Part shown: one piece after another, positions 275-6,262 of the stretch
How the letters are laid out: each line of letters opens with the position of its first letter
Position numbering within the stretch: the first letter of the stretch is position 1
Assembly (NCBI GenBank): GCA_024278215.1
Contig: JAJRTR010000110.1
Coordinates: 1-11,709, forward strand
Source: a bacterium
GTDB taxonomy: Bacteria; UBP15; UBA6099; JAJRTR01
DNA: 11,709 nt
Reading direction: 5' to 3'
Notes under the pieces: generated by a model
The model's database searches: none
Seen by the model: the letters and a program-made list of their open reading frames with translations, nothing else
What the model was told of the DNA's origin: nothing
Position numbers and translations under genes: made by a program

Positions 275-1528
275 ATGAATATATTGCATATATTGCACAG
301 AAAACCCGAATTGTACAGCGGCACAGAAAAGTTGGTATTACAGCTTGCGCGTATGGCAACCGGGGATGGTCATAAAGTAAGTATTCTGTACCCAAAAACG
401 GTGGCCGAAGAGATCGAACCGGTGATCGACGCCACGGAAGAAAACGGTGTCGGGCTGCTGGAAATCACCCGAACGGAGCGAGAGGGCGATTTTGCACCGC
501 CGGGGCCGGATGCGAGGGCGCTGAACGATTTGTTTTATGCGGCGCTCGACAGGATAGCACCTGATGTCGTTCATATTCACCAGTTAACCGATATGCCTGT
601 CGGCGCGCTTCCCGGCGCGGTCGGGTCAGGTGCGCGCACTGTGTTGACACTGCATGATTTCAGCCTGTTTTGCAAGCAGTTTTTTCTCGTCAGGAAAAAC
701 GGGAACTATTGCGACACTGCGGACAGTGGAAAGAACTGCGCGCGATACTGCGGAGAAAAACAGGCAGTAGAGCGAAGGCAGATGTGGCGGCAAATGCGCG
801 GGGGCGGCCCCGAGGCGGCATTTTACGGTAATGTTGTCCGAGCGAGGCAGATGGCTGTGAAAAGGGTTCACGTCGTTACTGCCCTATCGGAATTTGTTCT
901 TCAGATTTTCAGGAGAGAGGGTTTCGAACTGGAGAATGCGCGTGTGATCGAGCTGGGTATCGCGAAGTTCGAGGTCGAGCACAAAGGCGTGGTTGATCTG
1001 CCCGTAAGATTTGCAGCGCTCGGGACGATCTCGCGAAGCAAGGGGGCCGATCTGCTGATAGATGTATTCAAAGACATTGCTCCTGAGCAGGCTGTGCTTA
1101 CATTTCACGGTGGCCGCATAGACGCGGATGTGAAAGAGATGCTCGATGCCGCTGTCGCCGCGTACTCGAATATCAGGAACGCGGGTGCTTATGAGGAAAA
1201 AGAGCTGCCGGGGATACTTGCCGGAGCGGATTGCCTGATAAACGCGACGCGCCTGCCCGAGACGTATTCACTCGTGCTGTCCGAAGCGTGGCAGGCGGGT
1301 GTCCCCGTGATAGCCGCGGATATAGGCGCGATACCGGGGCGTGTCGACAGGGGAGTGAACGGTTTGCTTTTCGAGCCGGGCGACATGGGCGGACTGGCAA
1401 GAGCGGTGCAGACCGTCATCGGGGACCCGCAGATGATCGATAGAATGGCGAGCAACGCGCCGGAAGTAAAGGCACTGGGGCAATATTACGATGAGTTAAT
1501 GGAATTGTATGTAAGCGAGAAATATTGA
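275..1528 (+). CDS. Glycosyltransferase family 4 (GT-B fold)
   Basis: A 417-residue cytoplasmic sugar transferase that would move a sugar from a nucleotide-sugar donor to a cell-surface or lipid-linked acceptor; donor and acceptor cannot be told. The N-terminal Rossmann half opens with MNILHILHRKPELYSGTEKL, the usual GT4 start with a Gly-rich acceptor loop. A Cys cluster (C133, C146, C155, C159) in the middle resembles that of many GT4 enzymes. The C-terminal donor half has the E-x7-E signature at E329/E337 within LPETYSLVLSEAWQAGVPVI. There are no membrane segments. The start is chosen for AGGTGA at 263-268. The TGA stop (1526-1528) is the first three bases of a repeat element, so the last residues may be altered by insertion, although the length is normal. 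No other polysaccharide genes are adjacent. Confidence 0.88.
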   Translation: MNILHILHRKPELYSGTEKLVLQLARMATGDGHKVSILYPKTVAEEIEPVIDATEENGVGLLEITRTEREGDFAPPGPDARALNDLFYAALDRIAPDVVHIHQLTDMPVGALPGAVGSGARTVLTLHDFSLFCKQFFLVRKNGNYCDTADSGKNCARYCGEKQAVERRQMWRQMRGGGPEAAFYGNVVRARQMAVKRVHVVTALSEFVLQIFRREGFELENARVIELGIAKFEVEHKGVVDLPVRFAALGTISRSKGADLLIDVFKDIAPEQAVLTFHGGRIDADVKEMLDAAVAAYSNIRNAGAYEEKELPGILAGADCLINATRLPETYSLVLSEAWQAGVPVIAADIGAIPGRVDRGVNGLLFEPGDMGGLARAVQTVIGDPQMIDRMASNAPEVKALGQYYDELMELYVSEKY

Positions 1529-1668
1529 TTCGTGTGTAAAAATGCGCGGATGACATTTGTCAACAGACAATAAGCGACAATAGAGAACTCGCAAATAGCG
1601 TTTTTGTGAATTTCTGCTGACTTTAACAACAGCGGCTGTATTGAAAATGGCTAATTACACACGAATCA
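1526..1668 (-). mobile_element. 143-bp MITE-like element, copy 1 (called E1 here)
   Basis: Perfect 14-bp terminal inverted repeats TGATTCGTGTGTAA (1526-1539) and TTACACACGAATCA (1655-1668) bound a 143-base segment with no coding content. It is flanked by AATAT on both sides (1521-1525 and 1669-1673), a possible 5-bp target duplication. Read on the minus strand, it aligns without gaps to 3459-3601 at about 97 of 143 positions (hand count). Conserved blocks are the ends, an inner CATTTTCAA, an AAAGTC, and a TGACA-2-TGTCA dyad. It contains small internal palindromes, for example ACAGC-GGCTGT near 1630. The pattern fits a non-autonomous transposable element; no transposase is present in the window. 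Confidence 0.65.
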
Positions 1669-1694
1669 AATATTAGGCCCTTAACGCGCCGCAA

Positions 1695-1775
1695 GCGACA
1701 GCATGTTGTCGCCAGGCAGATAATGAGGTGACCGCAGCGTTCAGTCCCTGCGTTCAGGGGCGTAGCGCCGGAACG
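1695..1775. other. Cluster of hairpins, possible structured RNA or repeat
   Basis: Within the 406-base gap between the glycosyltransferase and tsaB, three foldable units are packed together. The first is a nearly perfect 18-base palindrome at 1695-1712 (GCGACAG... with one G-T). The second is CCCTG-cgtt-CAGGG at 1746-1759. The third is GGCG-tag-CGCC at 1759-1769. CGTTC (1738-1742) could close against GAACG (1771-1775) to form a multibranch. A direct repeat GCGTTCAG also occurs at 1737 and 1750. I do not recognise a known RNA family. From 1776 to 1934 I see only the tsaB ribosome binding site. Confidence 0.35.
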
Positions 1776-1920
1776 ATGGAAAACCGGTGTGGACGAGTGT
1801 GAATGCGATGACTGTGGTAACAATGAAACTCTGTGTGCCGTGCTCAAACCGCATTTGTTTGGGCACGAAAATGTGACCTTTTGGGTTCCGGTTGCGCCGG
1901 GTCAGGTTATTGCTTGTTTA

Positions 1921-1926
1921 AGGAGG
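1921..1926 (+). promoter_or_regulatory. Shine-Dalgarno site that fixes the tsaB start
   Basis: AGGAGG lies 8 bases before TTG 1935. It supports starting tsaB there rather than at the upstream in-frame GTG codon at 1833, whose extra residues have no TsaB-like character. The ATG overlapping the site at 1927 is in another frame and stops after four codons. Confidence 0.7.
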
Positions 1927-1934
1927 ATGAATAT

Positions 1935-2627
1935 TTGTTGACAGTCGGAGTGAGCACATCGTCGCCCGCGAGCAGTATAGCGATAATGGAAGACGGCTGC
2001 ATTGTGGGTGAAGATGCTTTCGAGGGCGCACGGTCGTGTGTCGAGGAGCTTATACCCAGATTAAAGAAACTTCTGGCGGATCAGGGGCGCGGCATGAGAG
2101 ACATCGGCAAACTTGCAGTGGACGTGGGGCCGGGCGGGCTGACCGGGTTGAAGATCGGCGTGGTTGCCGTAAAGACAATCGCGCAGGCGCTGGATATTCC
2201 TGTGGTGCCTGTTTCCTCGATGCGCGCGCTCTGCCACGGGCTCGACACGGAAACGGAATACATTATGCCGCTGATGCGGAGCACGAAGAAAGAGTTTTTC
2301 TCGGCGATATACCGCAAGAAACAGGGTGGTGTCGAATGTATTGAGCAAGAGCGTCTGGATACGCCGGAGGGGCTGGCCGGGCGGCTGGCGGATTTTGCCG
2401 GTGCGGAGATAACCGTAGCGGGAGACGGCGCGGGGCAGGCGGCGGAGGTGCTTGAATCGGAAAAAAATGTTACAATAAAGATGTGTGTAGATGATAAAAT
2501 GAAGTATCCAACTGCGAGGCTGGTCTGCCGGATCGCCGGAAGCGAGACCGGCCGTCACTGGCGGGAGATAAATCCCCGCTATCTGTGTCTGACAAATGCG
2601 GAGCGTAACTTTGGCATCAGAGTGTAG
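1935..2627 (+). CDS. tsaB: tRNA threonylcarbamoyladenosine biosynthesis protein TsaB
   Basis: TsaB is the ASKHA-fold scaffold partner of TsaD (with TsaE) in making t6A at position 37 of ANN-decoding tRNAs in the cytoplasm. The 230-residue length from TTG 1935 matches the family. The signature GPGGLTGLKIG sits at residues 65-75 (usual form GPGSFTGLRIG). PVSSMRAL follows, and PRYLCLTNAE near the C-terminus stands in for the usual PxYLR. Oddities: the normally conserved Asp of the N-terminal D-T-S/A motif is Val (V6 in VGVSTS), and the usual IDARRGEVY segment reads MRSTKKEFF, so the protein is diverged but intact. TsaB is not the catalytic subunit, which may allow this. rimI follows 19 bases later, the common tsaB-rimI order. 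tsaE and tsaD are not in the window. Confidence 0.85.
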   Translation: MLTVGVSTSSPASSIAIMEDGCIVGEDAFEGARSCVEELIPRLKKLLADQGRGMRDIGKLAVDVGPGGLTGLKIGVVAVKTIAQALDIPVVPVSSMRALCHGLDTETEYIMPLMRSTKKEFFSAIYRKKQGGVECIEQERLDTPEGLAGRLADFAGAEITVAGDGAGQAAEVLESEKNVTIKMCVDDKMKYPTARLVCRIAGSETGRHWREINPRYLCLTNAERNFGIRV

Positions 2628-2646
2628 GCAGAGGAAATGTATACCT

Positions 2647-3186
2647 GTGGCCGTCAGGCCGATGGAGATGGGCGATCTCCAGGAAGTATACACGATCGAG
2701 GTCGCGGCATATCCGAGGCCGTGGCCGATAAAATGCTTTATCGACGAGATGAACAAAAACCGGTTTGCGCGATATATTGTCGCGCTGGACCGCGACGAGT
2801 CGATCCTCGGGTACATAGGGATGTGGGTGATAAAGGGCGAAGCGCATATAACAAATATCGCGGTGGACCCGGTGTTCACGCGACGAAAGATCGCCGAGCA
2901 GATGCTAGTGAATTCAATAGAATATGCCATAGCTCAAAGATGTACTACGATGTACCTCGAGGTGCGCCGCTACAATATTGCCGCCCAGCGGCTCTACACG
3001 AGATACCTGTTCATACCGACGTATATAAAGGAGAAGTATTACCAGGACAACCATGAGGACGCCATCGAGCTTCGCATACAGAATTTGAATGAAGAAAAAT
3101 TTATTCTGAACTTCAGGCGACAGAGACAGCGCCTGTTGGACGTCCTCGGACTCGATCGGTTCCCCGGCCCGGGTGTTGTGCGATAA
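2647..3186 (+). CDS. rimI: GNAT N-acetyltransferase, RimI-like (ribosomal S18 alanine N-acetyltransferase family)
   Basis: A cytoplasmic GNAT-fold enzyme that would transfer acetyl from acetyl-CoA to a protein N-terminus; in E. coli RimI acts on ribosomal protein S18, which is also encoded in this window. Seen here: an N-terminal AYPRPWPIKCFIDEM block (residues 21-35), AHITNIAVDP (66-75), LEVRRYNIAAQRLY (104-117) and YYQDNHEDAIEL (131-142), all in family order. The acetyl-CoA pyrophosphate loop, normally RxxGxG/A, reads TRRKIA (78-83), with Lys81 where Gly is usual; the later Y-x3-G-F reads YTRYLF. About 35 extra residues follow the domain. GTG 2647 is chosen because GAGGAA (2631-2636) sits 10 bases ahead; ATG 2596 would overlap tsaB by 32 bases. 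Activity is uncertain because of the substitutions. Confidence 0.78.
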   Translation: MAVRPMEMGDLQEVYTIEVAAYPRPWPIKCFIDEMNKNRFARYIVALDRDESILGYIGMWVIKGEAHITNIAVDPVFTRRKIAEQMLVNSIEYAIAQRCTTMYLEVRRYNIAAQRLYTRYLFIPTYIKEKYYQDNHEDAIELRIQNLNEEKFILNFRRQRQRLLDVLGLDRFPGPGVVR

Positions 3187-3188
3187 TG

Positions 3189-3217
3189 TTGTGTTATTAA
3201 ATTGAATACCTTATAAT
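3189..3217 (+). promoter_or_regulatory. Candidate promoter downstream of rimI
   Basis: TTGTGT (3189-3194) is followed after 17 bases by a perfect TATAAT (3212-3217). A second TATAAT lies at 3245-3250 without a clear -35. A transcript starting near 3224 would cross the inverted-repeat structure at 3305-3439 and the second 143-bp element before reaching the thioredoxin gene. Confidence 0.45.
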
Positions 3218-3304
3218 AATAGACGTGAGATGCTTCCAATCGGGTATAATGTGCGTATGGACTAGTTAGTTTGAAATGTGGAAGTGATGGACGTCGGAAA
3301 AGAC

Positions 3305-3439
3305 GCAAAAACTGACGTTTTTGCATTCCAGAAAAAGCATGATTGTTGTATGCGGTGAGCGGATGCTGGCGACGAGCGGAGTAGCGGTGTTTGTGAAGAA
3401 TTGCTTTTTCTGGAATGCAACGACTGTGTCGTTGCAAAA
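3305..3439. repeat. Long inverted repeat with alternative flanking hairpins
   Basis: A perfect 19-bp inverted repeat, TTGCATTCCAGAAAAAGCA at 3321-3339 and its complement at 3402-3420, encloses 62 bases. A second fold overlaps each arm: GCAAAAAC-TGAC-GTTTTTGC (3305-3324, 8 bp) on the left and TGCAACGAC-TGT-GTCGTTGCA (3416-3436, 9 bp) on the right. The outer hairpins share bases with the long stem, so full long-stem and hairpin forms compete at their bases. The enclosed part carries a direct repeat GAGCGGA. No reading frame here looks coding. It resembles the palindromic ends of non-autonomous transposable elements, or a structured RNA; neither is proved. Confidence 0.55.
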
Positions 3440-3458
3440 TGTAATGCAGTATAAATGT

Positions 3459-3601
3459 TGATTCGTGTGTAATAAGTCATTTTCAAAAACAATGTTTTTG
3501 TCAAAGTCGGTCAAGATGCTTTAAAATGCTGAACATACGTTTGTTATAGTCGATCATTGTTGGTTGACATTTGTCATCTTCGACTTATTTCACATGAATT
3601 A
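3459..3601 (+). mobile_element. 143-bp MITE-like element, copy 2 (called E2 here)
   Basis: Begins with the same 14 bases as copy 1 (TGATTCGTGTGTAA, 3459-3472) and ends with a decayed complement TTTCACATGAATTA (3588-3601, 11 of 14 match). Its length is exactly that of copy 1, and it aligns gap-free with the minus strand of 1526-1668 at about 68 percent by hand count. It contains a perfect-arm palindrome CAAAAACA-A-TGTTTTTG at 3483-3499. The conserved dyad TGACA-TT-TGTCA is at 3565-3576. No target duplication is obvious (AATGT left, ACCCA right). It stops 6 bases before the Shine-Dalgarno of the thioredoxin gene. Confidence 0.6.
3564..3591 (+). promoter_or_regulatory. Weak candidate promoter inside element copy 2, facing the thioredoxin gene
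   Basis: TTGACA (3564-3569) is a perfect -35 hexamer. The best -10 is the poor TATTTC at 3586-3591 with a 16-base spacer. The -35 overlaps the TGACA-TT-TGTCA dyad, so a protein bound there could block it. If active, it would start a very short leader for the thioredoxin gene. Confidence 0.25.
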
Positions 3602-6135: not shown

Positions 6136-6262
6136 TTGTCGGCAGGCGGCGTTCCATAACAGCCCGGAGAGTTGCGATTTCACAATATCTTGCTTTCGCC
6201 GAGATTATTTACAGGTATCATCGAGCCGTTTCACATGAGCGTAGATGAGCGCTTTGCAGCAT

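Follow-up and report, generated by a model that had tools for sequence, protein, structure and literature searches.

Two segments of equal length

The window analysed here is a stretch of 11,709 nucleotides from a bacterial draft genome. It contains, at positions 1526-1668 and 3459-3601, two segments of exactly 143 bp in opposite orientation, which a first-pass annotation had aligned without gaps at about 97 positions. Because a lack of indels at about 32% divergence appeared unusual for a dead transposon, the annotation suggested that length or structure is constrained, as in a MITE with active mobilisation or in a functional regulatory or RNA unit. Which of these are the segments, and does their equal length carry any meaning? 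We are highly confident that both are members of one MITE family that has no coding capacity and generates 4-6 bp duplications at A-N4(-6)-T sites.

The coordinates are exact. Reverse-complemented, 3459-3601 agrees with 1526-1668 at 96 of 143 positions without a gap, compared with a mean of 40.5 (sd 5.1) and a maximum of 57 in 2000 pairs of dinucleotide shuffles of both segments. The copy at 1526-1668, assigned to subfamily A (Table 1), has perfect 14-bp inverted ends; in the copy at 3459-3601, assigned to subfamily B, the end is perfect only at 3459. The ends had been described as shared, which is correct in that the TIR TGATTCGTGTGTAA is found in both copies; the 3601 end is degenerate. No target duplication remains in the flanks of the B copy. 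The inner TGACA-TT-TGTCA block, kept in both subfamilies, is, judged from its sequence, a candidate subterminal protein-binding site.

Table 1. Features of the two MITE copies and of the adjoining gene (positions in the window).
Feature	Position	Strand	Remarks
Glycosyltransferase gene	275-1528	+	stop codon TGA (1526-1528) supplied by MITE end
Left target duplication of A copy, AAATATT	1520-1526		core AATAT 1521-1525; last T is element base 1
MITE copy, subfamily A	1526-1668	+	143 bp, or 141 bp with the outermost T and A assigned to the target
Left TIR of A copy, TGATTCGTGTGTAA	1526-1539	+	
Inner block of A copy, GATGACATTTGTCA	1549-1562		includes TGACA-TT-TGTCA; retained in both subfamilies
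Right TIR of A copy	1655-1668	-	perfect
Right target duplication of A copy, AAATATT	1668-1674		core AATAT 1669-1673; first A is element base 143
MITE copy, subfamily B	3459-3601	-	143 bp; 3601 end degenerate
Intact TIR of B copy	3459-3472	+	
Same inner block in B copy	3565-3578		TGACATTTGTCATC on + strand
Degenerate TIR of B copy	3588-3601	-	TAATTCATGTGAAA on - strand; 3601 end given as TTTCACATGAATTA

Copies and subfamilies

The first-pass annotation had allowed for the outcome that the genome holds no further copies and that the alignment does not exceed shuffled controls. DNA searches with each segment found the family at about 40 places in the 4.55-Mb, 207-contig draft genome from which the window comes, and the alignment lies far above the shuffles. 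Subfamily A accounts for about 21 places (76-100% identity to 1526-1668) and subfamily B for about 19 (89-100% identity to 3459-3601), with a cross-identity of about 70% between the two sets. A covariance model made from 30 copies recovers about 42 distinct places and one place of a second family (see below) in the same genome; it matches none of six other genomes of the phylum. A third variant of the family, 145 bp long, lies at C84:102699-102843. Several copies are broken off at contig ends, which is usual for repeats in draft assemblies.

The consensus sequences, drawn from 14 rows for A and 17 for B, each measure 143 bp and are identical at 107 of 143 positions (75%), ungapped over the whole length including the centre. 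The divergence of about 32% therefore holds for the two copies of the window but overstates that of their ancestors, the remainder being private mutations. Copies of A are pairwise 81-99% identical and those of B 87-99%; the closest pairs, at up to 99%, suggest that mobilisation was fairly recent. The full copies span 142-146 bp and have the ends TGATTCGTGTGTAA...TTACACACGAATCA, with TIRs of 14-20 bp. The blocks kept besides the ends include GATGACA-2-TGTCAA, a GACTTT stretch and AAATG-CT. Three other sequences, at 6257 on the minus strand of L087 and in L103 and L107, begin with the MITE end and have about 134 bp in common (70-91%); they resemble A and B only in the first 20 bp, and a second end was not found in them.

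Outside this genome the searches gave little. Plasmids contained no relatives of the A copy and phages none of the B consensus; scans of viral contigs, run with the two-ended element and with the extended end, gave zero matches, and the same scans of the genome collection two single ones, in unrelated gammaproteobacterial MAGs (L133, L134), which is near chance level. The exact TIR string TGATTCGTGTGTAA did not occur in the literature searched.

Target duplications and empty sites

Perfect flanking direct repeats of at least 4 bp are found at 22 of the 31 full copies (15 of 4 bp, 5 of 5 bp and 2 of 6 bp); with the flanks randomly re-paired, 1.9 copies are expected by chance and the maximum in 2000 trials was 7. 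An A precedes and a T follows the duplication in 20 of the 22. Since the element always has the form T...A, a length of 143 bp with duplications of 4-6 bp in an A-N-T context is indistinguishable from 141 bp with duplications of 6-8 bp. The flanking duplications foreseen by the first-pass annotation thus exist, mostly of 4 bp (6 bp with the invariant A..T) instead of the 5 bp it named.

Insertion within this same genome is proven by two repeats, R1 and T1, that occur both empty and filled. In R1 the filled form is GAGCCAATTGCAAAATT, a B copy and then AAAATTATGTTC, and the empty form in other R1 copies is GAGCCAATTGCAAAATTATGTTC. The empty form of T1 is CGATACAAAGTTGACACG (in L109), and the A copy inserted in T1 duplicates AAAGTT and itself holds a further insert. 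The same ACAAAGTT position of T1 copies is occupied by three different elements with ends of the MITE family's type (L125/L106, L102 and L111) and is a possible insertion hot spot.

Other short repeats are scattered through the same DNA. R1, bounded by GAGCCAATTGCAAAATT, is present in dozens of copies in the stretches examined (e.g., L060, L008, L087 and L108); the window opens within a copy (1-141) truncated at the contig end, and another incomplete one lies at about 200-270. Adjoining the B copy, at about 3319-3420, is an inverted repeat TTGCATTCCAGAAAAAGCA ... TGCTTTTTCTGGAATGCAA, which may be another dispersed element; GGAATGCAACGACTGTGTCGTTGCA from this region recurs in L149. A short hairpin, approximately CCCGCATTTGTGAAATATGCGGG, is dispersed as well and inserted into MITE copies (L090 at C77:11274-11443, L086 at C160:63380, L108, L110 and L111).

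Position relative to genes

When the sequences left and right of each element are rejoined, 5 of the 31 junctions cross an ORF of at least 100 amino acids, versus 76% of random control positions in the same flanks. Both consensus sequences have stop codons in all six frames. At the A copy of the window the glycosyltransferase gene ends with AAA TAT TGA, in the reconstructed empty site with AAA TAT TAG; the protein is unchanged because the TGA of the element stands in for the TAG. The B copy has rimI on one side and a thioredoxin gene on the other; it ends 18 bp before a likely start codon of the thioredoxin gene. A stretch around GTGCCGTGCTCAAACCGCATTTGTTTGGGCACG (window about 1830-1875), within what appears to be a 5' extension of the tsaB frame, recurs in L132, L086 and L148 beside MITE insertions.

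Is the length of 143 bp under selection?

The second reading offered at the outset was that of a functional RNA or regulatory unit, located between genes and held at 143 bp by structural selection. It would account for the equal lengths of the A and B consensus sequences and for the kept inner blocks, and it could draw on the thioredoxin gene directly downstream of the B copy and on one sigma-70-like site within that copy (TTGTCA-18-TAAAAT, 3498-3527). Yet the interior without the ends folds at -0.49 kcal/mol (RNAalifold, 28 sequences), the stable stem of the full element is formed by the inverted ends only, an Rfam match is absent in the window, and matches to promoter and terminator patterns are not above those in shuffles. 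Such a unit also has no need for transposition, which the target duplications and empty sites demonstrate.

The argument from the missing indels does not stand either. Changes within the subfamilies comprise roughly 10-15 small indel events versus about 230 substitutions, and from this rate we estimate that only about 1.5-2.5 indels are predicted over the 36 differences between the consensus sequences. Zero gaps are therefore unremarkable and weak evidence of constraint, the shortage not being significant; common descent from one 143-bp ancestor together with the observed indel rate explains the ungapped similarity. Taken together, these results make selection for an RNA or regulatory function very improbable.

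Still less probable is that A and B are unrelated and have their TIRs alone in common, having arisen by separate internal deletions of one autonomous transposon: the sequences in L087, L103 and L107, with only their ends in common with A and B, speak for this, but the two consensus sequences are 75% alike across all 143 bp, gapless and centre included, and separate deletions would not give the same junctions.

We therefore assign both segments to one MITE family on the basis of the target duplications, the empty sites, the avoidance of genes, the stop codons in six frames and the lack of a conserved RNA fold in the interior. This bears out the MITE reading of the first-pass annotation, which the many copies and the TIRs also support.

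Search for the transposase

In the draft assembly zero pairs of TIRs (up to 2 mismatches) lie 0.7-6 kb apart on one contig, and unpaired TIRs are surrounded by ordinary genes or other repeats, with no autonomous partner among them. One half-end is located just past the stop codon of a flagellin gene (L102). A test with PF01609 gave three transposases of the DDE_Tnp_1 type, which NCBIfam classes as one IS4 and two IS1634; the family TIR is absent at all three.

That the family consists of MITEs of this genome's IS1634 transposons is scarcely credible: the two transposases are present and their target duplications are of similar length (about 6 bp), but plasmid IS1634 relatives of the one in L114 have TIRs of the CTGAAGTT/CCGAACTTCCCC type, the L114 gene is followed downstream by GGGAAGTTCAG, the same IS1634 motif, and not by GATTCGTGTGTAA, and these differences from the family TIR exclude IS1634 as the source.

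The IS4-family element (L113) is bounded by CTTGGTTCCAATACCGTTCAGTTAAG; within the C160 copy of the MITE end there is a string resembling such an end, perhaps a MITE of that element. A derivation from IS256, which duplicates 8-9 bp of target, is not supported, the draft genome having no match to PF00872 and the core duplications being 4-6 bp (6-8 with A..T). A search of the draft genome with PF00665 (rve) likewise gave no match; the controls for both profiles were positive. The transposase may have been lost, or the draft assembly may lack its gene; a multi-copy IS could be missing because the draft is in 207 contigs and several copies lie on contig ends.

A second family and a possible common transposase

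The same genome harbors a second MITE family with the ends TGATTCCGGCGCAAAAAGTCC, a length of 104-145 bp and A-N4-T duplications, copies of which are found at L142 1501-1632 and in L143, L145, L147 and L149 (C22, C62, C90, C115 and C126). It used the AAAATT target in repeat R1 once, as did the first family, and in C62 one of its copies sits within a first-family end. The end motif TGATTC...AAAAAGTC is common to both families and suggests, as a matter of sequence, that a single transposase group serves them all. The wider proposal, that A, B and the TGATTCCGGCGCAAAAAGTCC family all owe their movement to a single undescribed group of transposases, which recognizes TGATTC-N6-AAAAAGTC ends and cuts A-N4(-6)-T targets, is speculative, and we consider it unlikely; if true, such a group would belong to a phylum in which mobile elements have yet to be described.

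For the MITE family of the window we propose that its copies are mobilised in trans. A transposase encoded elsewhere, probably of the DDE type, would recognise the TIRs, perhaps together with the kept subterminal blocks, excise or copy the element and place it into AT-rich targets with a staggered cut. Subfamilies A and B descend from one 143-bp ancestor, and each was amplified on its own to about 20 copies.

Comparison with known MITEs

These results add a MITE family that is well supported and proven by empty sites; the collection searched holds only seven genomes of its phylum. They also reveal a genome crowded with several nested families of short repeats, which helps explain the fragmented assembly. 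The general picture is left as before by this family.

Prokaryotic MITEs have been reviewed (PMC10969869), and Correia/NEMIS, RUP and ERIC have been compared with each other (PMC2229807). Like these, the present elements are shorter than 500 bp and AT-rich, have TIRs and target duplications but no conserved frame, and are intergenic, present in tens of copies and inserted into one another (PMC10969869, PMC2229807). Correia and RUP have TA at their termini, whereas the present family has A-N4-T and another TIR sequence (PMC2229807). From MITEs in general it differs by its 143 bp in two subfamilies, and from the IS1634 family, present in the genome and similar in its duplications, by its TIRs. 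The Chunjie MITE of Geobacter uraniireducens likewise forms tens of small intergenic copies with TIRs, direct repeats and partial copies; at 178-235 bp it is longer (PMC10969869). The family itself is new, its kind is well known: it is an ordinary genomic parasite.
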